From Haloterrigena alkaliphila (GTDB lineage Archaea > Halobacteriota > Halobacteria > Halobacteriales > Natrialbaceae), in the NCBI RefSeq assembly GCF_017352155.2, contig NZ_CP084319.1, positions 124,001 through 188,000 on the forward strand: a stretch of DNA of 64,000 bases, given 5' to 3'. Under the pieces are notes generated by a model that worked only from the letters and a program-made list of their open reading frames with translations, was not told where the DNA came from and searched no databases. Positions 18,824 through 50,089 of this stretch are shown one piece after another (position 1 is the first letter of the stretch; each line of letters starts with the position of its first letter). The position numbers and the translations under genes are program-made.

Positions 18824-21564
18824 CTATCCCGTATTCTTCATCCCAGCAGCGATTCCTTTGACCGTCAGCCGTAACGTCCGCTCTTCGATGCCCGTCCGAT
18901 CGGTCTGGTCGAGTAGGGACACCTGTAGTATATTCAGCGGGTCGACGTACGGATTCCGGAGTTCCAAGTTCTCACTGAGCCAATCGCGGGGGTGCAGACG
19001 GTCGCGCCGTCCGATCCCGGTCAGCAGGTCGGTCGCCCGCTCGTACTCGTCGGTCACGCGTGGGAAGAACCGCTCGCGAAGCTCCGCGTCGGCCAACTCC
19101 GCGTAGCGCTCGGCGATCTCGAGTTCGGTTCGCGACAGCGAGAGCGCGGCGTTGTCGAGCGTCGTCCGGAAGAACGGCCACTCGTCGTACATCGCCCGGA
19201 GCGTCTCCATCGAGCCGCCGTCGTCTCGCGTCCCCTCGCCGCTCGACTCTCCCGAGGAGCGTTGCTCCTCGTCCTCGAGATAGGCCTCGATGCCCGTCGC
19301 GACCGCGTACCAGCCCGGTAGGATACACCGCGACTGGGTCCACGAGAACACCCACGGAATCGCCCGCAGGTCCTCGACGGTGCGCTCGCCGCTGCGTGAG
19401 GCTGGCCGCGAGCCCAGATCGAGATCTTCGATGACCGTGATCGGCGTCGCCTGTTCGAAGTACTGCACGAAGCCGTCGCTCTCGAGCAGATCGCGGTACT
19501 CCCGCCGGGCGGCGTCGGCCATCGTCTCCATGGCCTCGAGCCACTCCTCCTGGATCTCCTCCTCGGGCCGTTCGATCGCCTGTTTGCGTGCTCGGAGCTG
19601 GGCGTTGAGCATCTGTTCGATGTTGCGCTCAGCGATGCGCGGATTGCCGTACTTCTCGGCGATGGCTTCACCCTGCTCGGTGAACTTTACCTGGCCCGTC
19701 ACCGTCGAGTTCGGTAGGGCCAGCAGCGCCTCGTTCATCGGGCCGCCACCGCGGGAGATCGAGCCGCCGCGGCCGTGGAACAGCCGCATCGTCACGTCGT
19801 GATCGTCACGGATCTCCCCCAGTCGGCGCTGGTTCTTGTACAGCGACCAGTTCGCGGCGAGGAAGCCGTTCTCCTTGTTCGAGTCCGAGTAGCCCAGCAT
19901 GATCTCCTGGGTCCGTCCCCGGGCCTCCAGCGCCTGTGCGTAAGCCTCGTTCTCGAACAGCGTCCCCATGATCCGGCGAGCCCCCGACAGCGCGTGCTCG
20001 GTCTCGAGGAGCGGCACGATATCGATCCCCGAATGCTCTGGAAGGGATACGACGCCGGCTTGGTCGGCCAGGAACAGCACCTCGAGGACGTGGCTGGGCT
20101 CTTCGGTCATCGAGATACAGTAGGTGTCGATCGCCTCGACACCGTACTCGGTCTGCCAGTCGGCGAGGCTGTCGAACAACTCGAGGACCCTCGCCGAGTC
20201 TTCCGAGAGCGGTTCGATATCCCAGAGATCGATCACAAGTTCGTCCTGCAACACGGCGTCGGTCAGGAACTCGACGCGCTCGTCCTCCGACAGACCGTGG
20301 TAGTCGATCCCCTTCGCTTCGAGGGCCTCGGCGATGGCGCCGGTGTGTTTCTGCTGGTGGTCCCGCAGATCGAGACTTGCGAGCGAGAAGCCGAAGGTCG
20401 CGACCTGTCGGCGGATCGGATCGACGTGGGACTCGACGATGCTCTCGGCCTCATTCTTGCGCAGACTCGTCGCGATGACCTCGAGGTCCTCGAGGAGGTC
20501 GTCGACCTCGGCGTAGCCGCCCGGCCGGACGTCACCGACGCGGCGGAGTCGCTCGCGCATGAGTTGGAGTTTCTGGCGATACGGCTCGCCGGGGTAGCGC
20601 TCCTCGGCCATACGTGCGCTACCTGGCAGCCGTTCACGATCGCGCTCCAGGGAGGCCTGAAACGCCGATCCGGCGTCGATCCGGCTCCCGTCCTGACTCA
20701 GGACGCCCGAGAGGCGTTTGAGCTGGTCGCGGTAGCGTTCCCTGATGATCTTGCGCTGGCGCTCGAGGTGTTAGCGGTCACCTCGGGGGTGACGTAGGGG
20801 TTGCCGTCGCGGTCGCTACCCGCCCACGAGCGGAACTCGAAGAACTTCGGAATGTCGAGGGTTCCGGGGACTTCAGCATCGATCGCTTCGTCGAACTCGT
20901 CGTAGACCTCGCCGACGACGTCGAACAGCGTGTTCTCGAGGTACCACTGGACGTTACGCGCCTCGTCTTCGGGCGCGGGCTGGCGGTTGCGGACCTGCGA
21001 GGTCTGCCAGAGACTCGTGATCTCTGCGTCGATTTCGCGCCAGACCTGCCTCTCTTCCTTGTCGGTCAGCAGCTGTTCGTCCAGCGTCTCGAGACACGTT
21101 GCAATCTCGCGAAGTTTGGATTTGACCGTCTTACGACGGGCTTCGGTCGGGTGAGCGGTGAACGTCGGTTCGATCAGCACATCGTTGAGAATCTGTCTGA
21201 CGGGTTCGATATCAGCTTCGCCGAGTTCTTCGGCCGCCGTCTCGAGACTATCGTCGAGGGTTCCTTCGTGAGATTCGGTTCGGATCGTCCGAACCCGCTC
21301 GCCCTCTTCGGCGAGGTTGATAAGTTCGAAATAGGTTGTAAACCCGCGAGCGACGATCTTCTGGTGATGAGACGACAGGTTTTCGAGCTCCGCGATCAGC
21401 GGTTTCCGGGACTTCCGGTCCCCGGATCGGTATTCGATCGAGGACCGACGAGACGATTCGACCGCTTCGAACGCTTTGCGAGAGGTCTGGTCCTCGAGAA
21501 TATCACCGAGAAACGTGCCGAGCTCGCGGACATCCTGGCGGACATCCCTGTTATGGAGTCCCAT
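18824..21564 (-). pseudogene. ppc: Phosphoenolpyruvate carboxylase, frameshifted
   Basis: Together the two frames make a full-length PEP carboxylase (about 912 residues), which adds bicarbonate to PEP to form oxaloacetate. The N-terminal part (21564-20767) holds the catalytic TAHPTEARR and GSDRDGNPYVTPEVTANT. The frame then breaks. The rest (about 20767-18824) holds RQVATFGFSLASLDLRDHQ, GYSDSNKENG, FHGRGGSISRGGGP and the terminal GIAAGMKNTG. One missing base at 20767-20768, where three G are expected in the GAGGTGTT context, explains the break. Family sequence reads ANTLERQR across it. All catalytic motifs are otherwise intact, so this is either a very recent mutation or a sequencing error. 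If real, the cell lacks this anaplerotic enzyme unless there is another copy. Confidence 0.9.
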
Positions 21565-23472: not shown

Positions 23473-24612
23473 GTGAATTCCGAGTCGACATCGGTTGCGG
23501 AACCGCTAGAGGAGTTCCTTCGCTCGAAATCGAAGGGCGGTGACGATAGCGGAAACTACCGACGGAATCTCGAACGCTGCGTCGAGGATTTTCTCGAGTG
23601 GCTCGCGGACGATGCCCGATCAAACGGGACGTTCGGCGACCTCGACGAACGCACGTTCCGGCGATACGCCCGCGAACTGTCCGGTCGCGACCTCGCTCAG
23701 GGGACGATTCGGACGTACTACGCGCACGTCAGCGCCTACATCGGCTGGTGCGTTCGCGAGGGGCTCCTCGAAGCGAACTATGCCCAGCGAAACGTCGCGA
23801 AGGAGCCGCTCCCGGAGAACGACGGTCGGCGATCGGGCGATCAGCAGGCCTGGACCGACGAACATCGGCGACTGATCACGCGATACGTCGATCGACGAGC
23901 CCACGAGGCGGCCGACGAGAAGGGGTTCGACGCGATCCGGGAGTTCCGCGATCGCGCGCTCGTCTACGTCCTCTGTTACTCCGGGGTTCGCGGCGGGGAG
24001 ATCTTCGCGGATCCGAAGGACACGCGGCGGAACGGCCTACGATGGGATGACGTGTCGCTCGAGGACCGTACGATGACCGTTCTCGCGAAGAAACAGGACT
24101 GGTCCGACCGCTCGCTGACGAAACAAGCAGTTGGACCGATGGAACGATATCACGAACTCCTCGAGCCGGCGACCGACGAGTGGCCGGTCTTCCCGACCTT
24201 CCATCTCCCGTCGCTCTACGAAACGCTCCGGACTGGGCTCCGGGCGGAATACGATTGGTCGGACGACGAAATCGAGGGATTCGTCGACGACCTCACCGGG
24301 CAGACCGACGTTTTCGAAGCGCTGCGTGATTACGAGTTGACGCCGCCATCGATCAACACCGATGGCGCGCGCCGGATCATGCGCCGGCTCTGTTCGGAAG
24401 CCGATCTGGAACTCGAGGGAAAACACGACTATCTCGCCCCGCACGGCGGACGTCGTGGTGCGGGCGAGGTAATGGTTCGACAACGAGGGTTCACCGCTGC
24501 CGCTCGACTCCTGGATAACAGCGAAGAGGTCGTCCGAACGTCCTATTCTCATATCGAAGCTAAAGAGATGGCCAAAGATGCCGGTGACGCGTTTACCGAA
24601 CACGATTCGTGA
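23473..24612 (+). CDS. Tyrosine recombinase / phage-type integrase
   Basis: A 379-residue XerC/D-like recombinase. Residues 10-110 are the SAM-like core-binding domain (TFRRYARELSGRDLAQGTIR and YYAHVSAYIGWCV). The catalytic domain has Arg173 in YSGVRGGEIF, a Lys near 206, His324 and Arg327 in APHGGRRGAGE and the nucleophile Tyr358 in RTSYSHIE. All catalytic residues are present. GTG at 23473 is used as start; no better one precedes the conserved region. It may belong to an integrated plasmid or provirus, or it may be a stand-alone haloarchaeal recombinase. Excisionase and capsid genes are not seen nearby. Confidence 0.88.
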   Translation: MNSESTSVAEPLEEFLRSKSKGGDDSGNYRRNLERCVEDFLEWLADDARSNGTFGDLDERTFRRYARELSGRDLAQGTIRTYYAHVSAYIGWCVREGLLEANYAQRNVAKEPLPENDGRRSGDQQAWTDEHRRLITRYVDRRAHEAADEKGFDAIREFRDRALVYVLCYSGVRGGEIFADPKDTRRNGLRWDDVSLEDRTMTVLAKKQDWSDRSLTKQAVGPMERYHELLEPATDEWPVFPTFHLPSLYETLRTGLRAEYDWSDDEIEGFVDDLTGQTDVFEALRDYELTPPSINTDGARRIMRRLCSEADLELEGKHDYLAPHGGRRGAGEVMVRQRGFTAAARLLDNSEEVVRTSYSHIEAKEMAKDAGDAFTEHDS

Positions 24613-25635
24613 AGCGGCCGCGCCCATAGATCTTTCTTGAGGGCTTCCCCACTTCGGTTACTGGAGAAGTCTGCCTTTCCGGCACTGTCTAGTTTAGCGA
24701 ATTCTTTACATATCTATTAATTTATCGGTACGGCCGATGTGTGTTGTAGTAGTGTACAAACTATTCAATTCTTTCTCTAACACTCGCCCGACTGACCACC
24801 CACGAATTGTAGAAGCGATCAACATATATCTTGATGACATGAAACTGCCATTTGGTCAGACTATTATAAATATAATCAATATAATAAATAATCCGTAATG
24901 AGGAAGGGGAACCAGATATCTGTATCTATCGACGAGAAATACCTACTTGGAGAGATCGTGTTTCCCGTCGACTAATGCAGAAATGCAGCGGCTGGATCGG
25001 TCCCTCGTCATCCGAAGATTACACCATCACGAATCAACGTGAGTCTATGTTGATTGCATCATATACCCAAGACCAGTCGCCGTTGATCTTGATAGTGATC
25101 TTATCAACCGCGATCCGCGACGACTGCGCCGTCTTCGGAACGCTTCGTATTTTGATACTGTTCTGTGAACGTCTCCAACTGTGACTCAGCATCTATTCAA
25201 CTTGGCAATTTATTGATGGTTTCATATGGGATCTCGGTTTCGTTATTATCGAATGCCCGCTTTCATAGCCATGGTTTATATCGGGCATGTTTCTCCACCC
25301 CAATATACAAAAGTACAGTTGTAAAAGACTACTATCGTTTCGATTTGACCGCTCGGAAACCTGGTTGCTCCTCCCTTCGATATATGCGAACGAGTGGTCT
25401 CTAAACGCTAAGGCTCATTTCCCGAGACCTGTGATCGCTATTGACTGTGTTTAGCAGCAAAATTACCGATTTCCGTTATCAGTTATTGTAGGCGGTTACA
25501 GGTCGGAATGATAAATGAAAATCAGATCTCTATCGCCGACTGACATTATTATGGTGTGATATTCAGGGTTGAAATAACTGTCGTGGACCATTGAGGCGCA
25601 GAAGTGATTAAGTGTTGCATTCCGAACGCACCAAT
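24613..25635. other. One-kilobase AT-rich intergenic region
   Basis: GC content falls clearly compared with both neighbours (for example the TATTATAAATATAATCAATA run near 24863). Short open frames are present, but none has a recognisable family, a good start or haloarchaeal acidic composition. It looks like decayed or foreign DNA between the recombinase and the IclR gene. Confidence 0.6.
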
Positions 25636-26427
25636 ATGACATCTGACACCCCATCACGGCGGATCAAGTCAGTTAGACGAGCCTGTTTACTCTTGATACA
25701 TCTCCGAGAAGTCGGTCCGACGACGGTAACGGAACTCGCGGATGAGTTTGATCTCTCACCTGGAACCGTTCACGCGTACCTTGCGACGCTCTGTGAGGTG
25801 GGATTCGTCGAACAGAACGGTGACGAGTACGCGCTCGGGCTTGAACTCCTGCCACTGGGTGAACACGTCCGCATGCAGCGCTCGCTGTATCAAGCAGCGA
25901 GGGGAGAGGTGGATCGGCTCGCTTACGCGAGCGATGGCGTCGCCCACTTACTCACGGAGTATGACGGGCAACTGATCGTACTCTACGAGGTTTTCGGCGA
26001 GAACGCCGTTGGCCGGGACTTTCACGCTCGGAAGCGAGATCGACCGCGAGAGCACATCCACTGCACTGCTGGGGGAAAAGCGATTCTCTCCCGGTTACCT
26101 GAACGGCGCGTCAGAACGATTGTGGCGGAGTTCGGACTCCCGGAATTCACTGAAAACACGATCACGGATCTTTCCGAACTCCTGGACGAACTAGGCGAAA
26201 TCCGCGAGCGCGGCTATGCGCTGAACGATCAGGAACAGATGCGTGGTATCCGCGCTGTTGGAGCGCCGGTGATCGACAGCAGTGGTGGTATAATCGGCGC
26301 GATAAGCGTCTCCGGTGCCGCGAGCAACTGGCGGGGGTCGTACTTCCGCGACGAACTCCCAGAACTCGTGACTCGATCGGCGAACAACATCGAGATCAAC
26401 CTTCAGTCCGATCCCAACGGGCGGTAG
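25636..26427 (+). CDS. IclR-family transcriptional regulator
   Basis: A 263-residue regulator. The winged HTH (residues 8-70) contains VTELADEFDLSPGTVHAYLA TLCEVGFVEQ. The effector domain (80-255) has the typical HIHCTAGGKAILSRLPE, RERGYALNDQEQMRGIRAVG and GIIGAISVSGA. IclR proteins bind small aromatic or carboxylic effectors and usually control an adjacent catabolic operon. This gene lies 233 bases before the carboxylase-like operon and points the same way, so it is the natural candidate regulator. The ATG at 25636 is chosen over an upstream in-frame codon at 25612. Confidence 0.9.
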   Translation: MTSDTPSRRIKSVRRACLLLIHLREVGPTTVTELADEFDLSPGTVHAYLATLCEVGFVEQNGDEYALGLELLPLGEHVRMQRSLYQAARGEVDRLAYASDGVAHLLTEYDGQLIVLYEVFGENAVGRDFHARKRDRPREHIHCTAGGKAILSRLPERRVRTIVAEFGLPEFTENTITDLSELLDELGEIRERGYALNDQEQMRGIRAVGAPVIDSSGGIIGAISVSGAASNWRGSYFRDELPELVTRSANNIEINLQSDPNGR

Positions 26428-26617
26428 ACACAAGTTGTCGGTCAGTAGTGCTTTGAGTTGCTTCGCTTTGATACAGAACCAAGAATGTGCTTCCGCTATT
26501 GTCCGAAGCCACCGAGGGGGATTTCACTCGAGTCGTCGCTCTCTGTCCGGGAAGCCGTCAGTAACCGGTCGATGAAAACCGGCCATTCGTTGACAATGCA
26601 TGATGCCCTTATATAGG

Positions 26618-26660: not shown

Positions 26661-28688
26661 ATGCCAAGACAAGACACACACTACGTCAGTATCGATACTG
26701 GTGGGACGTTCACCGACGGGTACGTCTCGTATCCGGAGGGGTCTACTACGGTTAAGGTCCCGACGACAGATCACGACCTGACGGTCTGCTTCCGGAACTG
26801 TATCGATAAGGCAGCAGAGAAACTCGAGCGATCAACGGAAGAGTTGCTCATCGATACCAACGTCATCCGGTTCTCGACAACGATCGGGACGAACACGATC
26901 ATTGAGCGATCCGGTCCGCAGATCGGCCTGATCGTCACCGACGACCGGAAGGAGGAACTGTTCCAAGTGGAGACCGATGACGATGAGGGCGTCTCCGACC
27001 TGACCGACGAAAACCTCGTCACGGGAATCCCCGAACGGGTCGACTCGGACGGCGAAGTCGTCGATCCGGTCGAGCGTGAGGACGTCCTCGAAGCGGCAAA
27101 GACTCTGATGAACCGAGGGGCGAAGCTTCTCGTCATCAGCCTCGACAACTCGTTCTACAACGAGAAGAACGAGGAACGGGCCCGGCGGATCATCGAAACT
27201 GAGTATCCGCCCCATTATTTGGGACCAAATCAGGTACTGACCGCCAACGAAGTCACCAGTCGACCGGGCTACCTCGCGCGCTCGTCAACGGCGCTCATTA
27301 ACGCGTACATTCACCGGCCGATGGCCCGATCGCTGTACAAGGCCGAGGACGATGTTCGCGAGAGCGGCTACGGGAACCCGTTACTCGTCGGCCAGTCAAC
27401 CGGTGGCGTCGCCGGCGTCTCCAAGACGGTTGCGCTTCACACGTACAACTCCGGTCCGGTCGCCGGGGTCCTGGGTGCGAAGGCGTTTCGCGAACTGTAC
27501 GACCTCGAGTCGGTTATCAGCACGGACATGGGCGGTACAAGCATCGACATCGGAACGATCACCGATGACGGCGTCGATCGGGAACTCGAACCGACCGTCT
27601 CCGGGCTGCCAGTACACGTGCCGATGATCAACGTTCGAACGGCCGGCGCCGGCGGCGGAAGCATTGCCTCGGTTGACGACGGCGAGTTCACCGTCGGCCC
27701 GGAGAGCGCCGGCGCCGAGCCCGGTCCGGCCTGTTACGATCTCGGCGGGTTCGAACCGACGACTACCGACGCCGACGTCGTCCTCGGATACATCGATCCC
27801 GATTACTTCCTCGGCGGTGACAAGCAACTCAACGCTGACCGCGCTCGAGATGCGATCGAACGATCGGTCGCGGACCCGCTTGACGTTTCCGTCGCGGAGG
27901 CGGCGCTGCGCGTTCGGGAGCGCGTCGACGAGAACATCGCGGCATCGATCACGGACCAGCTTGACGAGGGAGCCGATCCGGCCGAGACGACGGTCATCGC
28001 GTACGGGGGTGCGGGACCGATGCACTGCTGTACGTTCGCTGAAAAGGCGGGGATCGAACGGATCATCACGGCACCGGCAGCCGCGGAGTTCAGCGCCTTC
28101 GGCGGGGCAACGCTCGACGTCGAACACCGATACACGGCAGCGTTCGGTAGCCGATCGACGATCGCCGAGCCGTCGGTCTCCGTTGATGCCTACAACGAGA
28201 CCGTCGAAGAACTCGAGACGGAGGCGACGAAGGACATGCGCGGCGAAGGGTTCGACGCCGACGAGATCATGTTCGACCTTACGATGCTCGTCCGATCGGA
28301 CGGCGATGTCGAGGAACGGTCCGTGCCGATCCGAATCGACAGCCCGGACGACCTCGCAGAGGCGCTTGAGGGGCTCGGCTCCGATCCCGAAGAGTCGATC
28401 GGTCTCGACACGCTGGTCCTCACGGCGATCGGCCCGGTCGCGACCGAGGGATTCACCGAACGAGAGCTCCAGGGGAGCGACCCCGAACACGCCTACAAGT
28501 CCACGCGGACGGCCTACTGGCCGGACGACGGCTGGGTCGAGACCGACGTCTACCAGCGTGAAGACCTTGAGCCGGGGAACGTCGTCAACGGCCGCGCGAT
28601 CATCGAGGCGACGGACACGACGTACGTGATCCCCGACGCCTGGACCTTCGAGATCGACGAGTACGAACACGGAATCATCGAACGATGA
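26661..28688 (+). CDS. HyuA-like ATPase subunit 1 of an acetophenone-carboxylase-type complex
   Basis: A 675-residue (~72 kDa) hydantoinase A/oxoprolinase-family protein with an actin-like ATP-binding core. Visible are the N-terminal phosphate loop IDTGGTFTDGYV, IRFSTTIGTNTIIERSGP and STALINAYIHRP. The second phosphate loop is STDMGGTSIDIG, followed by RTAGAGGGSIASV, GPESAGAEPGPACY, VIAYGGAGPMH and the C-terminal VNGRAIIEATDTTYVIP. It is the first gene of a five-gene operon and its stop overlaps the next start (ATGA). In acetophenone carboxylase two different proteins of this kind activate CO2 and the ketone by phosphorylation. A cyclic-amide hydrolase role is the main alternative. Confidence 0.88.
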   Translation: MPRQDTHYVSIDTGGTFTDGYVSYPEGSTTVKVPTTDHDLTVCFRNCIDKAAEKLERSTEELLIDTNVIRFSTTIGTNTIIERSGPQIGLIVTDDRKEELFQVETDDDEGVSDLTDENLVTGIPERVDSDGEVVDPVEREDVLEAAKTLMNRGAKLLVISLDNSFYNEKNEERARRIIETEYPPHYLGPNQVLTANEVTSRPGYLARSSTALINAYIHRPMARSLYKAEDDVRESGYGNPLLVGQSTGGVAGVSKTVALHTYNSGPVAGVLGAKAFRELYDLESVISTDMGGTSIDIGTITDDGVDRELEPTVSGLPVHVPMINVRTAGAGGGSIASVDDGEFTVGPESAGAEPGPACYDLGGFEPTTTDADVVLGYIDPDYFLGGDKQLNADRARDAIERSVADPLDVSVAEAALRVRERVDENIAASITDQLDEGADPAETTVIAYGGAGPMHCCTFAEKAGIERIITAPAAAEFSAFGGATLDVEHRYTAAFGSRSTIAEPSVSVDAYNETVEELETEATKDMRGEGFDADEIMFDLTMLVRSDGDVEERSVPIRIDSPDDLAEALEGLGSDPEESIGLDTLVLTAIGPVATEGFTERELQGSDPEHAYKSTRTAYWPDDGWVETDVYQREDLEPGNVVNGRAIIEATDTTYVIPDAWTFEIDEYEHGIIER

Positions 28689-29653
28689 GCGGGCGCAGTC
28701 AATCGGCCGTCGAGTACTTCCGCGGTCGCCAGGACGATCCCCGACCCTGGTTTCCGCTGATCGGGCGGCTCGCCGCATCGATCAACCAGGTCCCCCCGGA
28801 GATATTCCTCTCGAACGCCACGCAGCAGACCAACGGGATTCAGAGTGCGTATCGACTGTTCGAGCCCGATGCGGTCTGTACCGCGATCGATACGACGCTC
28901 GTCGCGGAGGCGCTGGGCGCGGCGGTCGAATGGAACGAGTCGACGGACTCGTTCGACGTAGTCGACCCCATCGCGTCACCCGACGAAGTGACAGATCCGT
29001 CGACGGTACAGGACCGCGGTCGGCTTCCGACGGTGACCGACGTCGGCGAGCGGCTCGCGACCAACCTCGACGAGCCCGCGGTCGTCGGCGTCGTTCCCGG
29101 TCCACTGACGACCCTGGAGGCGACGTTCGGCGCGGACGCCGCTCTCGAGACCGATCGCACTAAACCGATCCGGACGGCCATCGGCGAACTCGGCCGCGCG
29201 TTCGGGAAGGCGAACGTCGATGCTATCCTCGTCTACGAGGACGTCGATCGGCTCGACGAGGGTAGCGGGGACGCTGCGGACGTGACCGTCGAGACGCTGG
29301 AGATGCTCGACAATATAACCGGTTTCTACAACACGCCGCTCGTCGTCGCCCCGAACGGCTACGCGGACGCGACGATCGAGGCGGTCCTCGAGCGCGCTCA
29401 ACCTGCGGGCGTGTTGCTCGATACCGACGACCCGGCAGCGAGCGCCGAGCGTTACCCGGACGTTCGCGTCGGCGGCGGAATCACGGATGAACTACTGGAA
29501 GCGGAGCCGGACGAGATCCGGACGCGGGTCGAGGAACGGTGTGCCGACCTCCCGAACTCGGGATTCCTCGCCAGCGGTCGCGAAGTCCCGCCGGACATCC
29601 ATCCGACGGAGCTACAGGCAGTGAGCGACGGACGGCCGGAGACCGATGGATAG
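28685..29653 (+). CDS. ~34 kDa operon protein, possible epsilon-type subunit (UroD/methyltransferase-like fold)
   Basis: A 322-residue protein embedded in the operon with a four-base overlap to the gene before it. The sequence is weakly like the uroporphyrinogen decarboxylase/cobalamin-independent methyltransferase barrel: FPLIGRLAASINQVPPEIFL, TDVGERLATNLDEPAVVGVV PGPLTTLEA, ALGAAVEWNE and VGGGITDELLE. Acetophenone carboxylase of Aromatoleum needs a separate epsilon subunit of about 34 kDa besides its core, and this protein has that size and context. Whether they are homologous I cannot tell from sequence alone. Confidence 0.6.
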   Translation: MSGRSQSAVEYFRGRQDDPRPWFPLIGRLAASINQVPPEIFLSNATQQTNGIQSAYRLFEPDAVCTAIDTTLVAEALGAAVEWNESTDSFDVVDPIASPDEVTDPSTVQDRGRLPTVTDVGERLATNLDEPAVVGVVPGPLTTLEATFGADAALETDRTKPIRTAIGELGRAFGKANVDAILVYEDVDRLDEGSGDAADVTVETLEMLDNITGFYNTPLVVAPNGYADATIEAVLERAQPAGVLLDTDDPAASAERYPDVRVGGGITDELLEAEPDEIRTRVEERCADLPNSGFLASGREVPPDIHPTELQAVSDGRPETDG

Positions 29654-29694
29654 CACAATGACCGACGACATAAAACCAATACCGATCACGGAAC

Positions 29695-30051
29695 ATGGGA
29701 GAAACTGATACTACCACGAACCGAACGAAACGGGTCGCGGAATACCTGGAGGTCGATCTCACGAACGAACAGTGGCAGTGCGCCCGGTGTACGGAGACGC
29801 TGGGGCCGGCGAACGAGAACTACAAGCGCGGTTGTCTGGTGAACGAGCGCAACCCGCGCGAGGTTCATCCGCCGATCCTCGAGGACGAGGAGTACTCGTT
29901 CGCACCGGACCCCGATTGGGTTCGGATCGTCGAGTTCTACTGTCCCGGCTGCGGGACCATGATCGAGAACGAGTACCTCCCGCCGGGCCATCCGATCACG
30001 AACGACACGCAACTGGACCTCGAGAAACTGAAGGAGGAACACGACGGATGA
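29695..30051 (+). CDS. Small zinc subunit (acetone/acetophenone carboxylase gamma-like)
   Basis: A 118-residue (~13.6 kDa) protein. Two CxxC pairs, Cys29/Cys32 (QCARC) and Cys83/Cys86 (YCPGCGTMIE), flank an acidic middle with NYKRGCLV. A small protein with two such knuckles is the hallmark that separates ketone carboxylases from ordinary hydantoinases and oxoprolinases, which have only A and B subunits. The gene starts 41 bases after its upstream neighbour and its stop overlaps the next start (ATGA). An earlier ATG at 29659 is in another frame and leads only to a 16-codon frame. Confidence 0.75.
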   Translation: MGETDTTTNRTKRVAEYLEVDLTNEQWQCARCTETLGPANENYKRGCLVNERNPREVHPPILEDEEYSFAPDPDWVRIVEFYCPGCGTMIENEYLPPGHPITNDTQLDLEKLKEEHDG

Positions 30052-32195
30052 CCACCCAGATCAACATCGACGCGGGCGGAACGTTCACCGACTGCTTCAC
30101 GGTCCACGACGGCGAGGTGGTCTCGGCGAAGACGCCGACGACGGAGCACGACATGTCGGAATGTTTCTTCCGTGGTATCGAGAAGTGCGCCTCGCAACTC
30201 GGTCTCGGTCTCGAGGACCTCATCGGTGAGGTGGACTCGATCCGCTACTCGACGACGACAGCGATGAATCGGCTCATCGAGCGGAAGGGTCCCAAGCTCG
30301 GACTGCTCACCACCGCAGGCGTCCAAGACTATCCCCAGATCGGTCGCGGGCCGCGGTGGGCCGACGGTCTGACCGACAGCGAGCAGCGCAACATCTCGGA
30401 CGCGAAGAAACCGGAGTACCTCGTCCCGGACTCCCGAACCAACGGCATCCGCGAGCGCGTCGACAGTGAGGGGAACGTCCTACGACCGCTCGACGAGGAG
30501 CACGCCCGCGAGCAGATCCGCAATCTCGTCGATAAGGGCGCTCGGGCCATCGTAGTGAACCTCCTGTGGTCGTACGAGTATCCGGAGCACGAAAAGCGTC
30601 TCCGCGAACTCGTTCGGGAAGAGTACCCGCCCTCGTACCTCGGCAGCATCCCCGTGTTCCTCTCCTCGGAGGTCATGCCGACCAAGCAGGAGTACGAGCG
30701 GACCAACACTACGCTGCTGGACGCGTACCTCTCGGAGCTGATGCAGGAGCACATCGCTGACATCAAGGACCGCTTAGAGGTCCACGGCTACGAGGGCGAC
30801 ATTCAGATGCTCCACAACACCGGGGGAATGGCTGAGTCATACAAGACGACCGCCGTCGAGACGTTCAACGGCGGCCCGGTCGCCGGCCTGAAGGGCGGCG
30901 AGTACCTCTGCGACGTGCTCGGCTACGAGAAGGCCGTCGTGACCGACATGGGTGGTACGAGCTTCGACATCGGCATCCTCACCCAAGGCGGCGTCGAGTC
31001 CTACGAGTTCGAGCCGGTGATCGACCGCTGGCGCGTCTCCGGGACGATGATCGAATCGAAGTCGATCGGCGCCGGAGGCGGATCGATCGCGTCAGTCAAC
31101 GACGACCTCGGCGGGCGGATCGAGGTCGGTCCAGAGAGCGCCGGTGCCGACCCCGGGCCAGCCTGCTATAACCGTGGTGGCACGAAGCCGACAGTGACTG
31201 ACGCCGACGTCGTCCTCGGATTTATCGACCCGGAGAAGTTCTACGCGGGGAACCAGCGGCTGGCGGTTGAGCGCGCCGAGGAAACGATCGAGACCCACGT
31301 CGCTGATCCCGCGGGGATGGACGTCGAGGAGGCGGCCGCGAACATCCGGCGGATCGCCGACGGGAACATGGGCAACACCGTCCGGAAGGAGACGATGCTC
31401 CGCGGGCATGACCCACGGGAGTTCATGCTCTACAGCTTCGGCGGTGCAGGGCCGCTGCACGCCGCATCGTACTCATCGTATCTCGACATCGACACCGTCG
31501 TCACGACGCCGTACTCACCGGTGTTCTGCGCGATGGGATCGGCGACGATGGACACGCTGCACATCTACGAGCAGTCGCACTCGATGTACCTCCGCGAGTC
31601 CGGCGAACGAGCGGAGTACACGACCGACTACGAGGCATTCAACGAGGTCGTTGAGGGCCTGAAGGCGAAGGGGCGCCGCGATATCCGAAGTGAGGGCTAC
31701 GACCCGGACGACATCGAGTACGAACTCGAACTGGACATGCGCTTCGGCGGTCAGATCCACGTCGTCCGGGTGCAGTCACCCCGGATTGAACTGGGCGAGG
31801 CGGCAGACGTCGAGGCCCTCTGCGAGCATTTCATGGACCAGTATAAGGAGCGGTTCTCCTCGTACTCGGTCACGCCTGACCATGGAATCACCGTGGAGAA
31901 CTTCGCGCTGAAGTCACGAGTCGCCAGCCCCGACGTTGAACTACCCACTGCGTCGCTGAACGATACTGACCCCTCGCCGGCACGGACCGGCAGCCGTGAC
32001 ATTATGTGGACAGGGCGCGAGGAGTACGTCTCGACCCCGGTGTTCGAGTACGAGGATCTGCGCGCTGGGATGGAGATCGAAGGGCCCGCGGTCGTCGACG
32101 CCGATTACACGACGACGGCCGTCCCCGACGATTGGAGTTACCGCCTGGACGAATACCGCAACGGAATTCTCGAAACTGACGGAGACAACCAATGA
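30048..32195 (+). CDS. HyuA-like ATPase subunit 2 of an acetophenone-carboxylase-type complex
   Basis: A 715-residue (~79 kDa) second HyuA-family subunit, clearly a paralogue of the first but not a copy of it. The motifs are INIDAGGTFTDCFTV, IRYSTTTAMNRLIERKGP and TDMGGTSFDIGIL, then SIGAGGGSIASV, GPESAGADPGPACY, YSFGGAGPLHAA and VVDADYTTTAVP. Extra segments not in the first subunit include GRGPRWADGLTDSEQRNIS near residue 100. The reading frame is open about 90 codons further upstream, but the ATG at 30048 overlaps the preceding stop and starts exactly at the family N-terminus. Two unequal A subunits in one operon is the alpha/alpha' arrangement of acetophenone carboxylase. Confidence 0.88.
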   Translation: MTTQINIDAGGTFTDCFTVHDGEVVSAKTPTTEHDMSECFFRGIEKCASQLGLGLEDLIGEVDSIRYSTTTAMNRLIERKGPKLGLLTTAGVQDYPQIGRGPRWADGLTDSEQRNISDAKKPEYLVPDSRTNGIRERVDSEGNVLRPLDEEHAREQIRNLVDKGARAIVVNLLWSYEYPEHEKRLRELVREEYPPSYLGSIPVFLSSEVMPTKQEYERTNTTLLDAYLSELMQEHIADIKDRLEVHGYEGDIQMLHNTGGMAESYKTTAVETFNGGPVAGLKGGEYLCDVLGYEKAVVTDMGGTSFDIGILTQGGVESYEFEPVIDRWRVSGTMIESKSIGAGGGSIASVNDDLGGRIEVGPESAGADPGPACYNRGGTKPTVTDADVVLGFIDPEKFYAGNQRLAVERAEETIETHVADPAGMDVEEAAANIRRIADGNMGNTVRKETMLRGHDPREFMLYSFGGAGPLHAASYSSYLDIDTVVTTPYSPVFCAMGSATMDTLHIYEQSHSMYLRESGERAEYTTDYEAFNEVVEGLKAKGRRDIRSEGYDPDDIEYELELDMRFGGQIHVVRVQSPRIELGEAADVEALCEHFMDQYKERFSSYSVTPDHGITVENFALKSRVASPDVELPTASLNDTDPSPARTGSRDIMWTGREEYVSTPVFEYEDLRAGMEIEGPAVVDADYTTTAVPDDWSYRLDEYRNGILETDGDNQ

Positions 32196-34252
32196 CTGTC
32201 GACCGCGACCAACTGATCGACTGGCTCGACCTCGAAGAACCGTCCTCAGACGAACTGGCTTGCATGGACGACCTAGAACACGGCGACTATGAGATCTACT
32301 CCGAGCGCCTGCGGCTCATCCTCGACGAGGGGATGGACGTGTTCGTCCGCTCGGGCGTCTCGCAGTTCATCGCCGCTCGCGACCTCGCGGTCGCCATCTA
32401 CACGCCGGAGGGCGACCTCGTCGACTCCGCGGCCGGCGCGTACCTGCACGTCGTCACGGGCGTCCCACCGCTGAAGTACGTCATCAACAACTTCGCCGAC
32501 GACGAGACCGTCGGCGTCGAGCCCGGTGACGTATTCTACGCGAACGACGCGCTCTACGGCGGCATCCACAACCCCGACCAGATCGCGTTCATGCCCGTCT
32601 TCCACGACGGGGAGATCATGGCGTGGGTCTCCGCCGCCGCTCACACGACCGAGACTGGCGCCATCGAACCCGGCGGCATGCCGATTTCCGCTCGGACTCG
32701 CCACGACGAGGGGATGAAGCTCTCGCCGATCAAGATCGGCGAGGACTACAAGCTCAAAAGCGACATGGTGGAGATGCAGAAGAACTTCATCTCCCGCGCC
32801 CCCCGGATGCACGAGATTGACCTCAGGGCTCGCGTCACGACCTGCGATCGGGTCCGTCGACGCATCAAGGAACTCATCATCGATAAGAAGGGGCCGGACT
32901 TCTTCAAGGGACTCATTCGCCGAAACATCAAGGAGTCCCAAGAGGGTGCCAAGAGGCGCATCGATGAGTGGAACGACGGCACCTTCCAGACGGTCCACTT
33001 TGCGGACACGGTCGGCTACGAGGACGGCCTCTGGCGGCTGAAGGCGGAGATGGAGAAGGACGGTCCCGAGATACACATCGACTACAGTGGCACCTCGCCG
33101 GAGAACGATGGTTCGTTCAACACTCAACCGGTCGCCGCTATCGCTCACACCGCGAACTACATGTTCAGCGTCCCATTCCACGACCTGCCCAAGAGCAACG
33201 GGACCTACGACCTCATCGACTTCGACATCCCGAAGGGATCGATCCTCTACCCCGATCCGGAGGCGTCGACGGTCCAAGCGGTGATGGTCAACCAGGTGAT
33301 CATGGACTCGACGACGACACTGTTTTCGCGGTCGATGTACGACGAGGACAGCGAGAACGAGCACGTCACCGCACCGATGGCTAATACCGCACCCGGGTAC
33401 GCCTTCGGCGCCGAGAACCAGCACGGTGAGCCGGTCGCTGACCTCATGTCTCACGCGCTCAACACCGACGGTACTGGTGGGCAGGCCCGGCGCGACGGCG
33501 AGGACGAGGCAATCTTCCCATGGTGTCCGTTTGGCCATGCCTCGAACATGGAGTTCGTCGAGAACGAATACCCCTTCACGCATCAGTACTTCCGCCACGG
33601 GACCGACTCCTGTGGCCATGGCAAGCACCGCGGCGGAATCGGGATGCAGATCGCATACATGATGCACCACGTTCCCGTCGTCGAGTGGCTGTCGATCTGT
33701 CACAACTCGAAGCTCGTGACCGGACAGGGCCTGTTCGGCGGCTACGCGCCACGAACGATCCCTGGGATCACAATCACTGATTCGGATCTCAAGGAACGGA
33801 TGGCAAACGGGGAGTACGTCCCCGACGACCTCATCGAACTACTGCAGGACCGAACGCTGGACGCCGACTACAATATCACTAGCCACGTCCGCGAGTCGAA
33901 GCCCTACGAGAACGGCGACCTCTTCGTCGGTCACTCCGGTGGCGGCTGCGGATACGGTGACGCGCTTGAGCGCGATCCCGACGCTGTCATGGAGGACATC
34001 GAAAACGACCGCGTGACCCATCGGTCCGCGAAGGAGATCTACCAGATCGAGTACGACGAGGAGACGCTCACCGTCGACGAGGAAGCGACCGAACGCCGTC
34101 GAGAGGAATTCCGCCAGCAGCGACTCGAGGAAGCCCAGTCGTTCGGCGGATTCATCGACGAGTGGGAAGAAAAGCGACCCGACGACGAGATCCTCGAGAA
34201 CTACGGCAGCTGGCCAGATGGAGAGAAGACGGAACCAGTGATGCGACAGTAG
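32192..34252 (+). CDS. HyuB-like subunit of an acetophenone-carboxylase-type complex
   Basis: A 686-residue (~77 kDa) hydantoinase B/oxoprolinase-family protein. Hallmarks are the N-terminal EIYSERLRLILDEGMDVFVR, YTPEGDLVDSAAGAYLHV and GDVFYANDALYGGIHNPDQI. The core has AWVSAAAHTTETGAIEPGGM, IDYSGTSPENDGSFNTQP and FRHGTDSCGHGKHRGGIGM. The C-terminal GHSGGGCGYGDALERDPDAV is the usual glycine-rich end. In known complexes the B subunit carries the condensation or hydrolysis site fed by the ATPase subunits. Its start overlaps the stop of HyuA-like subunit 2 by four bases. It is the last gene of the operon, 105 bases from the convergent CoA ligase. Confidence 0.9.
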   Translation: MTVDRDQLIDWLDLEEPSSDELACMDDLEHGDYEIYSERLRLILDEGMDVFVRSGVSQFIAARDLAVAIYTPEGDLVDSAAGAYLHVVTGVPPLKYVINNFADDETVGVEPGDVFYANDALYGGIHNPDQIAFMPVFHDGEIMAWVSAAAHTTETGAIEPGGMPISARTRHDEGMKLSPIKIGEDYKLKSDMVEMQKNFISRAPRMHEIDLRARVTTCDRVRRRIKELIIDKKGPDFFKGLIRRNIKESQEGAKRRIDEWNDGTFQTVHFADTVGYEDGLWRLKAEMEKDGPEIHIDYSGTSPENDGSFNTQPVAAIAHTANYMFSVPFHDLPKSNGTYDLIDFDIPKGSILYPDPEASTVQAVMVNQVIMDSTTTLFSRSMYDEDSENEHVTAPMANTAPGYAFGAENQHGEPVADLMSHALNTDGTGGQARRDGEDEAIFPWCPFGHASNMEFVENEYPFTHQYFRHGTDSCGHGKHRGGIGMQIAYMMHHVPVVEWLSICHNSKLVTGQGLFGGYAPRTIPGITITDSDLKERMANGEYVPDDLIELLQDRTLDADYNITSHVRESKPYENGDLFVGHSGGGCGYGDALERDPDAVMEDIENDRVTHRSAKEIYQIEYDEETLTVDEEATERRREEFRQQRLEEAQSFGGFIDEWEEKRPDDEILENYGSWPDGEKTEPVMRQ

Positions 34253-34357: not shown

Positions 34358-35689
34358 TCAGTCGTCTTTAACTACTAGATCCGCCTTGTACTCCGAAAGT
34401 TCGATCGACTCGAGGTCGGCCGGGCGTGGATCGATTCGCACCTTCAATCGAGAGCGGACCATCGAGATCGCATCGTCGACGATTTTGTCCGTATCGCGAT
34501 TACTGTCCGGATCAACGACGACGCGAAGCGGAATTGGTTCCTCGAAGTGCACTTTGTCGGCATCGGGAACGACGACCTGTGCATGGGGCAGAAGCCCATC
34601 GACATCGGAGACGACGTCACGAAGCGCCGACGGGAAGACGTTCATCCCCTTGTAGATGAGCATATCATCCGTCCGTCCGATGCACTGGATCTTTGGGGAG
34701 GTCCGCCCGCAGGGACATTCTGTCCCAGTCACGCGGACGACGTCACCAGATCGGAATCGCAATAGCGGCGTCGCCTCCCGCTGCAAGGGCGTGTAGACGA
34801 GTTCGCCTTCAGTACCCTCTTCAAACGGAGTAACTTTCCCCGTCTCGGGATCGATCAGTTCGACGTGCACGTGTCCCTGTCCGTGATAGTGCATTCCATC
34901 TTCTTGATCACATTCGGCCCAGAGACAGGCGATGACGTCTCCCAGTCCCATGATCTCTCGAACCGTCGTCGCGTTCCACTCTTCGGCGAGTTCTCGGCGG
35001 ATCTCCGGATTCGCGATTCCGGGTCCGCCGCCGCCGATGAGTTTCGTGAGCGGGAGTTCGTCAACGTCGTGACCGAGCAGTTCCGGTGCGTTCTCCGAGA
35101 GATATCGGAGGTGAGAGGTCGTAGTAAAGAGCACGTCGCCCGAGAGGTCCGTGATCGCGGAGAGGAGTCGATCAGTGGTGCCGCCGCCTGCAGGGACGAC
35201 GTTGCAACCCAGTTCAGTGAGTCCCTCGAAATACGGCGTTCCACCTGGAACCATTGTCTGTCCAACGCCGAAGATCACGGTATCTTCCGGACGTATACCG
35301 GCGGTGTAGAAACAGCGCTGAAGCACCTCGTTCCACTTCCGCCGGTCGGCGTCCGTCAGCCCGAAGTACGTCGGCTTACCAGTCGTTCCGGAGGAAGAAA
35401 TGGTCCGGTTGAGAGCCTCAGTCGGCGCTGCCTGATGGTCTCCGAGCGGCCGCTCGGCATCGGTGTCCTCTTGACACGCGCGCTCGTCGTCCTTCGTCGT
35501 GAACGGAACGTCTCGTAACGCCTCGAGGGAGTCGATATCCGCCGGATCGATCTCCCACTCGTTGAACCGATCCCGATAGAAGCCTGACTCCGTCGCGAGG
35601 TACTCGATTTGTTCCGCGAGGAGGTCCTCGTGCAGCCGTTTGATCTCGGTCCACGGTCTGGTCTCTATCGAAGCATATGCGTCGCCCAT
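34358..35689 (-). CDS. PaaK-type AMP-forming acyl-CoA ligase
   Basis: A 443-residue ligase of the phenylacetate-CoA ligase family, which activates aryl or acyl acids with ATP and CoA. ATP-loop ISSSGTTGKPTYFGLT (around 95-110), IFGVGQTMVPGGTPYFEGL, GGGGPGIANPEIR, EIMGLGDVI and the FRSGDVVRVT...CPCGRTSPKI hinge region are present. The C-terminal domain begins GRTDDMLIYKGMNVFPSAL. The start at 35689 (MGDAYASIETRP) matches the family, and an AATTTATCATA box lies just upstream. In Aromatoleum the benzoylacetate from acetophenone carboxylase is activated by a dedicated CoA ligase, so this convergent neighbour may do the same. An unrelated aromatic acid is the alternative. Confidence 0.87.
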   Translation of the reverse strand: MGDAYASIETRPWTEIKRLHEDLLAEQIEYLATESGFYRDRFNEWEIDPADIDSLEALRDVPFTTKDDERACQEDTDAERPLGDHQAAPTEALNRTISSSGTTGKPTYFGLTDADRRKWNEVLQRCFYTAGIRPEDTVIFGVGQTMVPGGTPYFEGLTELGCNVVPAGGGTTDRLLSAITDLSGDVLFTTTSHLRYLSENAPELLGHDVDELPLTKLIGGGGPGIANPEIRRELAEEWNATTVREIMGLGDVIACLWAECDQEDGMHYHGQGHVHVELIDPETGKVTPFEEGTEGELVYTPLQREATPLLRFRSGDVVRVTGTECPCGRTSPKIQCIGRTDDMLIYKGMNVFPSALRDVVSDVDGLLPHAQVVVPDADKVHFEEPIPLRVVVDPDSNRDTDKIVDDAISMVRSRLKVRIDPRPADLESIELSEYKADLVVKDD

Positions 35690-36744: not shown

Positions 36745-38307
36745 ATGCCAAGAAGTGACAAACACGTCTTTCGCCGACCAGATGGAGAGACGCTCGAGTC
36801 GCTCGCGGCGGACATTGGACTCTCTCTAACGCCTAACGAACGCGACGACTATGAGACCCTAGTCTCCGGTGCGATCGACGGCTTGGCCGGGATTGAACAG
36901 GGACCGTCGTTCGATCCGGGCCTCGAACCGGTGACTCTCGACGGCAGGGAGCGGGGATACCGGCCGACTGTGGACGAGGATCCGCTGAACGCCTGGATCA
37001 CGAAAGGTGAGGTCCGCGGCGAGACGGACGGACCGCTGTCGGACGTCACCGTCGGCGTCAAGGACTCGATCGCCGTCGCCGGGTACGAGATGACGGCCGG
37101 ATCCAGAGTGCTCGAGGGGTTCGTTCCCCGGATCGACGCGTCCGTGGTCTCCCGCCTCCTCGAAGACGGTGCGACGATCGCTGGCAAGCTTAACATGGAG
37201 AGTTTCGCCTGGTCGGGTCGCGGTGATATCTCTGATTTCGGCCCGGTAGAGAACCCGCATGGGGAGAACCGGCTTCCCGGAGGCTCGTCCAGTGGATCGG
37301 CCGCGGCTCCCGCAAACGACGAGTGTGACGTCGCACTCGGAACCGATCAGGCCGGCTCGGTCCGCATTCCGAGCTCCTGGTGTGGACTCGTCGGACTGAA
37401 ACCCACTCACGGACTCGTTCCCTATACGGGTACGCTACCGCTCGAAGTGAGTCTCGATCACATCGGCCCGATGGCCCCGACCGTCGATCTCGTCGCCACT
37501 GCGCTCGATGCGATCGCCGGCGTCGACGTCGTTGACGGGATCCAGTTAGACCAGCGCCAGCCACGATCCCTCGAGACTGACTCGTACGCTGACTCCGTCG
37601 ACGACAACATCGAATCCCTCTCAATTGCGGTCCTCGAGGAGGGATTCGGCTGGGAATTCTCTGAATCCGAAGTCGACGACGCTGTTCGGGATACCGCAGC
37701 GACGTTCGAGGACCTCGGTGTCTCCTGTGAGACAGTTTCGGTGCCGATCCATCGACGAGGAGTGAGCGCATGGGCGGCCATCGCCTCACAGGGTGGACGG
37801 CGTCTCCTCCGAGAGGGCGGCGTCGGAACCAACCACACCGGCTGGACGTGGACTCGTCTTGCCAGAGCGCTCAAGTCGGCGCTCGACGCTCGGACAGACG
37901 AACTGCCACCGACGGTCAAACGGTCGCTCCTCGCAGGCGAGTTTCTGGCGGATACGTACGGTGTCGAACCGTACGCGAAAGGGCGCAACGTCGCAATGGC
38001 TGCGCGACAGATGTATGACGAGATCCTGGCGGAGCACGATGCTCTCCTCCTGCCGACGACGGCAACGCGTGCCTTCGAAGGGCCGGCGGCCTTCGATCGA
38101 GTCGACGCACTCGAGCGGGAGATACAGACGATCGTCAACACCTGTCCCTTCAACCTCACCGGCCATCCAGCCGTGTCGGTGCCGTGTGCGAAGCCGGACG
38201 GACTCCCGGTGGGTGCGATGCTCGTCGGCTCTCGGTTCGACGAGACGACGCTTCTGGCGCTAGCCGGAGCGTACGAACGTGCCACGGAGTGGGAGGATCA
38301 ACCGTAG
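36745..38307 (+). CDS. Amidase-signature family amidase
   Basis: A 520-residue member of the amidase signature family, which hydrolyses amides with a Ser-cisSer-Lys triad. The catalytic lysine is in TVGVKDSIAVAG, and the serines lie in LPGGSSSGSAAAPA and LGTDQAGSVRIPSSWCGLVG LKPTHG. A helical C-terminal region ends ATEWEDQP. The N-terminal 70 residues (LADDIGLSLTPNERDDYETL-like) resemble those of amidases found in nitrile and indoleacetamide operons. The substrate is unknown. It stands alone downstream of the IS6 relic and upstream of a broken sensor-kinase gene. GatA is an alternative family member, but no gatB or gatC partner is present. Confidence 0.88.
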   Translation: MPRSDKHVFRRPDGETLESLAADIGLSLTPNERDDYETLVSGAIDGLAGIEQGPSFDPGLEPVTLDGRERGYRPTVDEDPLNAWITKGEVRGETDGPLSDVTVGVKDSIAVAGYEMTAGSRVLEGFVPRIDASVVSRLLEDGATIAGKLNMESFAWSGRGDISDFGPVENPHGENRLPGGSSSGSAAAPANDECDVALGTDQAGSVRIPSSWCGLVGLKPTHGLVPYTGTLPLEVSLDHIGPMAPTVDLVATALDAIAGVDVVDGIQLDQRQPRSLETDSYADSVDDNIESLSIAVLEEGFGWEFSESEVDDAVRDTAATFEDLGVSCETVSVPIHRRGVSAWAAIASQGGRRLLREGGVGTNHTGWTWTRLARALKSALDARTDELPPTVKRSLLAGEFLADTYGVEPYAKGRNVAMAARQMYDEILAEHDALLLPTTATRAFEGPAAFDRVDALEREIQTIVNTCPFNLTGHPAVSVPCAKPDGLPVGAMLVGSRFDETTLLALAGAYERATEWEDQP

Positions 38308-42736: not shown

Positions 42737-43378
42737 TTACTCCTCGGACGAGGTCGTAATCTCCTCGAGGACGGTATCGGTCAGTACGACGTCGCCGTAT
42801 TTCGCGTCGATATCGAAGAGATTCGCCCTATGCGGGCCTTCCGCTCTGTCGCCCACGGCGTCGGCCGGAACGATCGTTCGATAGCCGTGCTGGAGGCTGT
42901 CAACTGCCGTCGCACGGACGCAGCCGCTGGTAGTAACACCGACGAGTACGAGGGTATCGACGCGATTAGTTGTCAGCTCTGACTGGAGGTCGGTCCCGAA
43001 GAAGGCGCTGGCGTACTTCTTCAGGATGACCCGTTCGTCGGCGATCGGTTCGATGCGCTCGTCCACTTCAACGCGGTCAGTACCGAGTCGGAGTTCCTTG
43101 AGCGCAGGCACTTTTTCCACGAACATCCCCGCGTCGCCGTACGAATCCTCGAACGCGACGGTGGTGAAGTATCGGGGCAGGTTGTGTTCTCGGAACGCCT
43201 CGAGAAGCCGCTCCGTCTGCTCGAGGACGTCGTCGACGTCGGCCCCGAGGTTCGAACTCGGGTCGGTGAAGGCGTTGATGAGGTCTATAACGAGCAGCGC
43301 CGGTCGTTCCCCCATACCGACGCTCTCGCCGAACTCCAGGTCGTCGTAGCGGTCCTCCGTGTCGTCGATCCAATTCAT
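42737..43378 (-). CDS. Isochorismatase-like cysteine hydrolase (N-carbamoylsarcosine amidase type)
   Basis: A 213-residue hydrolase. The triad is Asp32 in LLVIDLINAF, a Lys at 120-121 in ILKKYASAFFGT and Cys153 in VGVTTSGCVRAT, followed by GYRTIVPADAVGDR. The family includes N-carbamoylsarcosine amidase, ureidoacrylate amidohydrolase and nicotinamidase. The gene lies 30 bases downstream of hyuB and in the same direction. A likely job is therefore hydrolysis of the linear N-carbamoyl compound made by the HyuAB enzyme (hydantoin to carbamoyl compound to amino acid). That is inferred from context. Confidence 0.88.
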   Translation of the reverse strand: MNWIDDTEDRYDDLEFGESVGMGERPALLVIDLINAFTDPSSNLGADVDDVLEQTERLLEAFREHNLPRYFTTVAFEDSYGDAGMFVEKVPALKELRLGTDRVEVDERIEPIADERVILKKYASAFFGTDLQSELTTNRVDTLVLVGVTTSGCVRATAVDSLQHGYRTIVPADAVGDRAEGPHRANLFDIDAKYGDVVLTDTVLEEITTSSEE

Positions 43379-43408
43379 AGCATGATAGGTGCGGTAGACG
43401 ATCGATCG

Positions 43409-47334: not shown

Positions 47335-47397
47335 ATGGTATCGTACGGGTACCATGACCGGAGCAGTTCGAGTAAGCGTTCTCCCAACCAGTGGTGG

Positions 47398-47408
47398 TCA
47401 TTTATATA
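47398..47408 (-). promoter_or_regulatory. TATA box of the hyuAB-isochorismatase operon
   Basis: On the minus strand GGTATATAAATGACC places a TATA box about 50-70 bases before the two possible hyuA start codons. Confidence 0.5.
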
Positions 47409-47621
47409 CCGGTCGCTCGCAGTTCGGTCAGACCCCATCGGTGACTCGTTCCGTCGCCGTCGACCTCGGTTTCTCTAAACGACGGTCTCGTTGCGCTGGT
47501 CAAGCGCTCGAACGAATCGAAATATACTCTAACGCGTTTTAGCGGCGGGGTCTCACGAACACGTATGCGTGCGGACTCGAGTCCGCATTCGGCTGGCTCG
47601 AGTCGACTACTACCGATGGAG

Positions 47622-47629
47622 TATATAAA
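47622..47629 (+). promoter_or_regulatory. TATA box of the CoA-transferase operon
   Basis: TATATAAA lies 56-63 bases before ATG 47685 and just downstream of an in-frame ATG at 47616. That earlier codon would therefore not be transcribed, which decides the start. Confidence 0.6.
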
Positions 47630-47684
47630 CAGCCAACACTGGGTGGAACAACTGTCTTTCGTCGCGGGGCTGTGGGTCAGGGAA

Positions 47685-49994: not shown

Positions 49995-50089
49995 GTCCGA
50001 TCGATCCTCGACTCGAGCCTCCATTGGTGGGTGGTACTTAGGCAAGTATTATGCGATGGGAGCAAGTACCACACGGTACGATCAGGTAG

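Follow-up and report, generated by a model that had tools for sequence, protein, structure and literature searches.

Does a salt-loving archaeon carry a complete gene set of the acetophenone carboxylase (Apc) type, and if so, which ketone would the enzyme act on? This question is raised by five open reading frames (ORFs) of Haloterrigena alkaliphila at positions 26661-34252 (plus strand) of the window, by which we mean the whole 64,000-nucleotide stretch analysed, bases 124001-188000 of a 285-kb contig (NZ_CP084319.1) that forms a large secondary replicon in a 4.27-Mb genome of three contigs. A sequence-only reading had proposed that they form an operon with the subunit set of Apc from Aromatoleum, and all five ORFs were found exactly in that span and with the sizes given there. 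Each predicted subunit could be matched to its Apc counterpart, and we conclude that the operon is real and that its place in the Apc branch, as an archaeal member with the epsilon gene in another position, is well supported; it does not represent a new type of enzyme. Judged by sequence, it is homologous to Apc in all five subunits.

Pfam profiles identified Hydantoinase_A in genes 1 and 4, including both its N-terminal and C-terminal domains (E about 1e-76 and 1e-77), Hydantoinase_B in gene 5 (4e-88), Acetone_carb_G in gene 3 (3e-33), and URO-D in gene 2 (3e-13; 49.9 bits vs a cut-off of 23.9), in agreement with the proposal of two unequal HyuA-like proteins and one HyuB-like protein. The top NCBIfam matches of genes 2 to 5 were ApcE, ApcB, ApcC, and ApcD, respectively, and gene 1 matched both ApcC and ApcA. 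Compared with solved structures, gene 4 scored 4.5e-211 against Aromatoleum ApcC (5l9w_B) vs 5.8e-110 against acetone carboxylase, and gene 5 scored 2.2e-180 against ApcD (5l9w_A) vs 2.9e-50 against acetone carboxylase; the beta subunit has 686 residues vs 684 in Aromatoleum. Gene 3 matched ApcB (5l9w_C) along its length (1.5e-39), which together with the Pfam assignment places the small subunit in the carboxylase gamma family.

Since pairwise scores left gene 1 ambiguous, maximum-likelihood trees were built from the relatives collected here and solved reference chains (60 rows for alpha, 37 for beta); the two 6yra chains used as references have 696 and 581 residues, as stated for CapA and CapB of the P. 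jessenii caprolactamase (PMC8453981). The alpha tree has two parts, one of which (100/100, 23 rows) holds all alpha' subunits together with Aromatoleum ApcA and gene 1. In the other, gene 4 groups with the ApcC proteins of Aromatoleum and Desulfobacula (99/98), separate from the alpha subunits of acetone carboxylases and of lactamases and hydantoinases. In the beta tree, gene 5 adjoins Aromatoleum ApcD (98/91) within an Apc clade (100/99). Alpha, alpha', and beta all lie apart from caprolactamase, N-methylhydantoinase, and a second HyuAB pair in the window itself; the A and B subunits fall outside the oxoprolinases and hydantoinases. With alpha and beta outside the Acx and Hyd clades, we rejected assignment of the operon to the acetone carboxylases or to the hydantoinases, oxoprolinases, and caprolactamases, which have two subunit types vs five subunit genes here. 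Sequences from haloarchaea sit nested within bacterial groups, and the operon was therefore likely acquired from bacteria.

For the 34-kDa product of gene 2, homology to ApcE was found with NCBIfam (6e-8), with the ApcE structure 9fou (7.5e-5), which was released in December 2025, and with a profile of the gene 2 family, which matched epsilon subunits whose genes lie within the apc operons of bacteria (probability 99.8, E 2.5e-28). A first structural model built from six haloarchaeal sequences only reached a predicted local distance difference test (pLDDT) score of 58 and was not used; with three bacterial epsilons added, the score was 89. The latter model has a uroporphyrinogen decarboxylase (UROD) barrel fold (UROD match, Z 33) and matches 9fou (E 2.6e-10; Z 25, root-mean-square deviation 3.3 over 291 residues), supporting the view that this protein is epsilon-like. 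Epsilon is the least conserved subunit, with 46-65% identity between haloarchaeal copies vs 87-91% for alpha and beta, and it has also been remarked as the most divergent one in the Apc literature (PMC5214803). As noted in the sequence-only reading, its gene (28685-29653) comes second instead of last, giving the order A-E-gamma-C-D here vs A-gamma-C-D-E in Aromatoleum, so that the apcABCDE order is not kept. The second position is not special, since the place of E varies among bacterial operons of the Apc branch. Because a protein with a decarboxylase fold is required for a carboxylation, epsilon may be catalytic or may channel CO2.

At the residue level, the ATP motifs DTGGTFTD, DMGGT, and GAEPGP are present in alpha'. 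The fingerprint RERVDSEG was found in alpha and PERVDSDG in alpha', the latter lacking only the first R/K, which makes this a weak contrast. The small protein has the two CxxC pairs described earlier (C29/C32 and C83/C86), and these zinc cysteines align with C22, C25, C75, and C78 of ApcB; the putative beta metal ligands D64, H126, D129, and H151 correspond to D65, H123, D126, and H148 of ApcD and are all conserved. The seven alpha pocket positions named for Aromatoleum (PMC5214803) read MFNPIES here vs LFNPIQT there, a difference at 3/7, and Phe281 is common only to Aromatoleum, Desulfobacula, and this haloarchaeal clade among the rows compared. With the ATP motifs, zinc cysteines, and putative metal ligands kept, the enzyme looks intact from its sequence, and its pocket resembles that of Aromatoleum without being identical.

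Features of the apc-like locus in the window
Feature	Coordinates	Strand	Size and evidence
IclR-family transcription regulator	25612..26427	+	Pfam IclR_C 3e-28; 48-76% identical regulator directly upstream in 5/5 related haloarchaeal operons
TTATATA, possible TATA box	26609..26615	+	52 bases 5' of first start codon; putative role, from sequence
alpha' subunit, ApcA-like ASKHA ATPase, proposed bicarbonate kinase	26661..28688	+	675 aa, 72.9 kDa; Pfam/NCBIfam, tree, ATP motifs
epsilon subunit, ApcE-like, uroporphyrinogen-decarboxylase fold	28685..29653	+	322 aa, 34.3 kDa; profiles, PDB match, model
gamma subunit, ApcB-like, four-cysteine zinc site	29695..30051	+	118 aa, 13.6 kDa; Acetone_carb_G, 5l9w_C
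alpha subunit, ApcC-like ASKHA ATPase, proposed ketone/enol kinase	30048..32195	+	715 aa, 79.1 kDa; 5l9w_B, tree, fingerprint
beta subunit, ApcD-like, proposed C-C bond-forming subunit	32192..34252	+	686 aa, 77.1 kDa; 5l9w_A, tree, metal ligands
PaaK-type acyl-CoA ligase, proposed beta-keto acid activation	34358..35689	-	NCBIfam paak_haloarch 3.6e-82, below its cut-off

The genes are, as had been proposed, mostly joined by ATGA overlaps (3/4 junctions: A/E, gamma/C, and C/D), and a 41-base gap separates E from gamma. All five subunits are strongly acidic (isoelectric point 4.1-4.6), as expected for a haloarchaeal host. The IclR protein is probably the local regulator of the operon. The ligase ORF extends with a GTG to 35791, and the start at 35689 was picked because the Halobellus copy has 443 residues. 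Shortly upstream of the IclR gene lies an integrase-like ORF (23473-24612, plus strand) with weak Phage_integrase and Phage_int_SAM_5 matches, which hints at a mobile setting.

The order IclR-A-E-gamma-C-D is the same in five other haloarchaea, namely Halobellus inordinatus, three Halopenitus-group genomes, and the genome G094. Given the family scores and these same-order copies, whose operon proteins are 46-91% identical, a chance origin of the five-gene set can be excluded. A PaaK-type ligase (65-78% identical) stands beside the operon in Halobellus and the three Halopenitus-group genomes and, counting the window, in 5/6 clusters. The lineage is present in 6 of 391 sampled haloarchaeal genomes, that of the window included, and the operon is not present in five further genomes of the window's genus. 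One of these five (G197) has a truncated, frame-broken ligase copy (locus L081, 10190-11277, minus strand; about 71-77% identical) without apc genes, a probable remnant, as if the unit had once been present and was then lost. Beyond the IclR gene, the five subunit genes, and the ligase gene, we found no neighbour common to all six clusters, and thus the neighbours do not name the substrate.

The closest known relative is ApcABCDE of Aromatoleum aromaticum EbN1 (5l9w core, 9fou epsilon), which has all five subunit types, with full-length homologues of alpha, beta, and gamma. The ATP motifs, the zinc cysteines, and the putative metal ligands are conserved between the two, as is the fold of epsilon, and there, too, a CoA ligase gene lies nearby. 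Besides gene order, the haloarchaeal system differs in having an IclR protein instead of two-component regulators, a ligase of the PaaK type, and archaeal, strongly acidic subunits. Bacterial Apc-like operons (Desulfosporosinus, Desulfobacula, Desulfobacterales, Gaiellales, Emcibacter, and others) likewise encode alpha', gamma, alpha, and beta and, in some cases, a homologous epsilon, but they belong to other sub-branches, and epsilon was either not found or occurred in the orders E-A-gamma-C-D, A-gamma-E-C-D, or gamma-C-D-E-A. Acetone carboxylase AcxABC (5svb, 5m45) shares homologous alpha, beta, and gamma subunits and performs ATP- and bicarbonate-dependent ketone carboxylation, but it has neither alpha' nor epsilon and falls in separate clades. 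The same clade separation applies to caprolactamase CapAB (6yra) and N-methylhydantoinase (7hk5), which have homologous alpha and beta parts and activate a carbonyl with ATP; they catalyse hydrolysis and not carboxylation, and consist of two subunits or one fused chain.

Closer in host, a plasmid of Halorientalis marina (NZ_CP095488.1; locus L068, 7948-22504) carries an Apc-like operon in canonical order (alpha'-gamma-alpha-beta), with two AMP-binding ligase genes, a thiolase gene, and a gene for an OB-fold protein. It is haloarchaeal and plasmid-borne, but belongs to another sub-branch, with relatives from Rhodococcus, Neorhizobium, and Cupriavidus, and forms a separate lineage, so that at least two Apc-type lineages exist in haloarchaea. 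Its fifth protein had no Pfam or NCBIfam family match and showed no relation to ApcE; like its counterparts in Rhodococcus and Neorhizobium, it was considered and rejected as an ApcE homologue (profile probability 1.4, no family matches).

The sequence-only reading had known of no described case in a salt-loving archaeon. In the open-licence literature, we found no paper on acetophenone or acetone carboxylase in haloarchaea or halophilic archaea and none on acetophenone carboxylation by haloarchaea, and to this extent, for operon and function, the statement stands. For the gene it does not fully hold, as a lateral-transfer study of 2011 listed an "acetophenone carboxylase", 45% identical to that of Azoarcus, among Dead Sea fosmid genes, with neither operon nor function in its main text (PMC3236060).

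Our main reading, which we consider probable, is that the operon encodes an Apc-type ketone carboxylase that has five subunits and does without biotin. It would consume two ATP, depend on bicarbonate, and form a beta-keto acid that is passed on as its CoA ester. The chemistry, the formation of a complex, the role of epsilon, and the regulation we infer as follows. By analogy with Aromatoleum, alpha would phosphorylate the enol of the ketone with one ATP and alpha' would phosphorylate bicarbonate with the second. Beta, with gamma as its zinc-stabilised partner, would couple both phosphorylated species to the beta-keto acid, and epsilon would be required to complete or couple the reaction. In Aromatoleum, bal encodes the CoA ligase serving apc, and a free beta-keto acid needs such a ligase (PMC4729919). 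Since a CoA ligase gene also adjoins the operon here, as in the apc-bal operon, the carboxylase product would be the free acid; the PaaK-type ligase would convert it to beta-ketoacyl-CoA, and thiolysis would release acetyl-CoA together with an acyl- or aroyl-CoA. Regulation of the unit would probably fall to the IclR protein.

Several observations weigh against assigning this function. The NCBIfam cut-offs for the acetophenone carboxylase equivalogs were reached by no subunit (755/1500, 681/1500, 156/250, and 32/450 bits), and therefore the substrate may well differ from acetophenone. Pocket positions 344 and 345 are ES vs QT in Aromatoleum, and the alpha' site reads NDD vs EDK, NDD being the usual reading in this branch. 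Gamma alone is no proof of carboxylation, since haloarchaeal hydantoinase-like alpha/beta pairs also carry one. A thiolase gene was not recognised beside the operon, and G094 has no close copy of the ligase anywhere in its sequence. In addition, a single Apc has been characterised so far, and its authors caution against assigning functions to distant relatives (PMC5214803). In view of the cut-offs and the two pocket residues, the name acetophenone carboxylase should not be given to this enzyme, which is not an established member of that class in the strict sense.

Among other functions, an ATP-dependent cyclic amide hydrolase (lactamase or hydantoinase) with extra subunits belongs to the same superfamily, and caprolactamase is likewise bicarbonate-dependent (PMC8453981). 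An amidase gene (36745-38307, plus strand) is found no more than about 13 kb from the operon, as is a minus-strand set (42737-47355) in which an isochorismatase-like hydrolase accompanies a hydantoinase/lactamase-type HyuB/HyuA pair; these two are possibly a set for cyclic amide degradation, and all could then form one amide-degrading island. Gamma-like subunits also accompany some hydantoinase-like pairs. However, neither alpha' nor epsilon is part of the hydrolases characterised in this family (PMC5214803), alpha, alpha', and beta sit in the Apc branch, and in related haloarchaea the operon has the CoA ligase as its neighbour and neither the amidase nor the second HyuAB pair appeared there, which makes this explanation improbable. 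A variant of acetone carboxylase would account for the Acetone_carb_G family of gamma, and true acetone carboxylases do occur in other haloarchaea, but we give it almost no credence: the trees split the operon from Acx at full support, alpha' and epsilon are present, gamma has 118 residues and not 168, and beta 686 and not 776.

With ketone carboxylation as our preferred function, the choice of substrate is less clear. Our guess is a methyl or alkyl ketone of moderate hydrophobicity, possibly an aromatic one. The same architecture could serve a non-aromatic ketone such as acetone, butanone, or a longer aliphatic or terpenoid-derived one, and we see this as a real prospect, if a little short of an even chance: the equivalog cut-offs were missed, the three pocket changes include Q344E and T345S near the reactive end, and the neighbours examined included no recognisable dehydrogenase for ethylbenzene or 1-phenylethanol. 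Yet Phe281 is shared with Aromatoleum, the pocket is unlike that of acetone carboxylases, and PaaK-type ligases prefer aryl acids. A gentisate 1,2-dioxygenase-like gene, moreover, was found in 6/6 carriers of the operon (E about 1e-60, below the curated cut-off), compared with 37/242 sampled haloarchaea at that strength (P about 9e-6 if genomes are independent). At the genus level, the association is weaker (4/4 vs 19/73 genera, P about 0.004); this was one test, picked with the aromatic hypothesis in mind, and two of the carrier genera have the gene generally. In the genome of the window, this gene clusters with an acyl/aryl-CoA-type ligase, a flavin adenine dinucleotide (FAD)-dependent monooxygenase, and an IclR regulator, and haloarchaea degrade benzoates and 3-phenylpropionate via gentisate (PMC4005966). 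As the dioxygenase occurs in every carrier, aromatic ring catabolism would be available to them, and an aromatic ketone is a plausible substrate.

In the strict sense, acetophenone would be the physiological substrate, with benzoylacetyl-CoA next and benzoyl-CoA feeding the gentisate pathway. Among characterised enzymes, Apc is the nearest to the alpha, beta, gamma, and epsilon subunits, and Phe281, the CoA ligase, and the gentisate cluster fit as well; against this stand the missed cut-offs, the replacement of Q344 and T345, and the fact that no acetophenone-forming genes were recognised nearby, and we hold this to be rather unlikely. A broader scheme, tentative and in our opinion doubtful, is a complete archaeal aryl-ketone route, in which an Apc-type carboxylase would convert a ketone resembling (hydroxy)acetophenone to an aroyl-acetate, aroyl-CoA would arise through the PaaK-type ligase and a thiolase, and the gentisate cluster would open the ring. 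Epsilon would then be an active part, working in the carboxylating direction or guarding a CO2/carboxyphosphate channel, and not a mere assembly factor.

Other genes of this superfamily were observed in the same genome and its relatives. Contig C2 (about 46491-50998; locus L052, 8491-12998, plus strand) has a set of three genes arranged alpha-beta-gamma, as in acetone carboxylase. In the trees, its alpha and beta stand beside hydantoinases and not acetone carboxylases, and it has sisters in four other haloarchaea. This set counters the published rule that complexes of the hydantoinase type lack gamma and may represent an uncharacterised group of enzymes. The acetone carboxylases of other haloarchaea (alpha, beta, and gamma) were seen at five loci, and no paper on them was found in the open-licence literature. 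Elsewhere in the window, phosphoenolpyruvate carboxylase is encoded in two ORFs in different frames (18824-21564, minus strand) with a break around 20600-20800, suggesting either a pseudogene or a sequencing error, and a CaiB/BaiF-type CoA transferase gene is directly followed by an isopropylmalate/homocitrate synthase-like gene of 363 codons (47565-49994, plus strand), an unusual pair.

In Apc, the two kinase sites lie about 50 angstroms apart, and their cooperation and the role of epsilon are unsettled (PMC5214803). In the haloarchaeal clade, six operons are near-complete, and most have their own ligase and regulator; the clade offers a second Apc case in which epsilon could be deleted, swapped, or mutated, and Haloferax volcanii provides a genetic host system for such work. 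The cell may use ketones as food, perhaps aromatic ones. If the substrate is indeed a ketone, ATP-driven carboxylation of the Apc type would reach into an archaeal lineage and into the degradation of hydrocarbons and plant matter in hypersaline environments.

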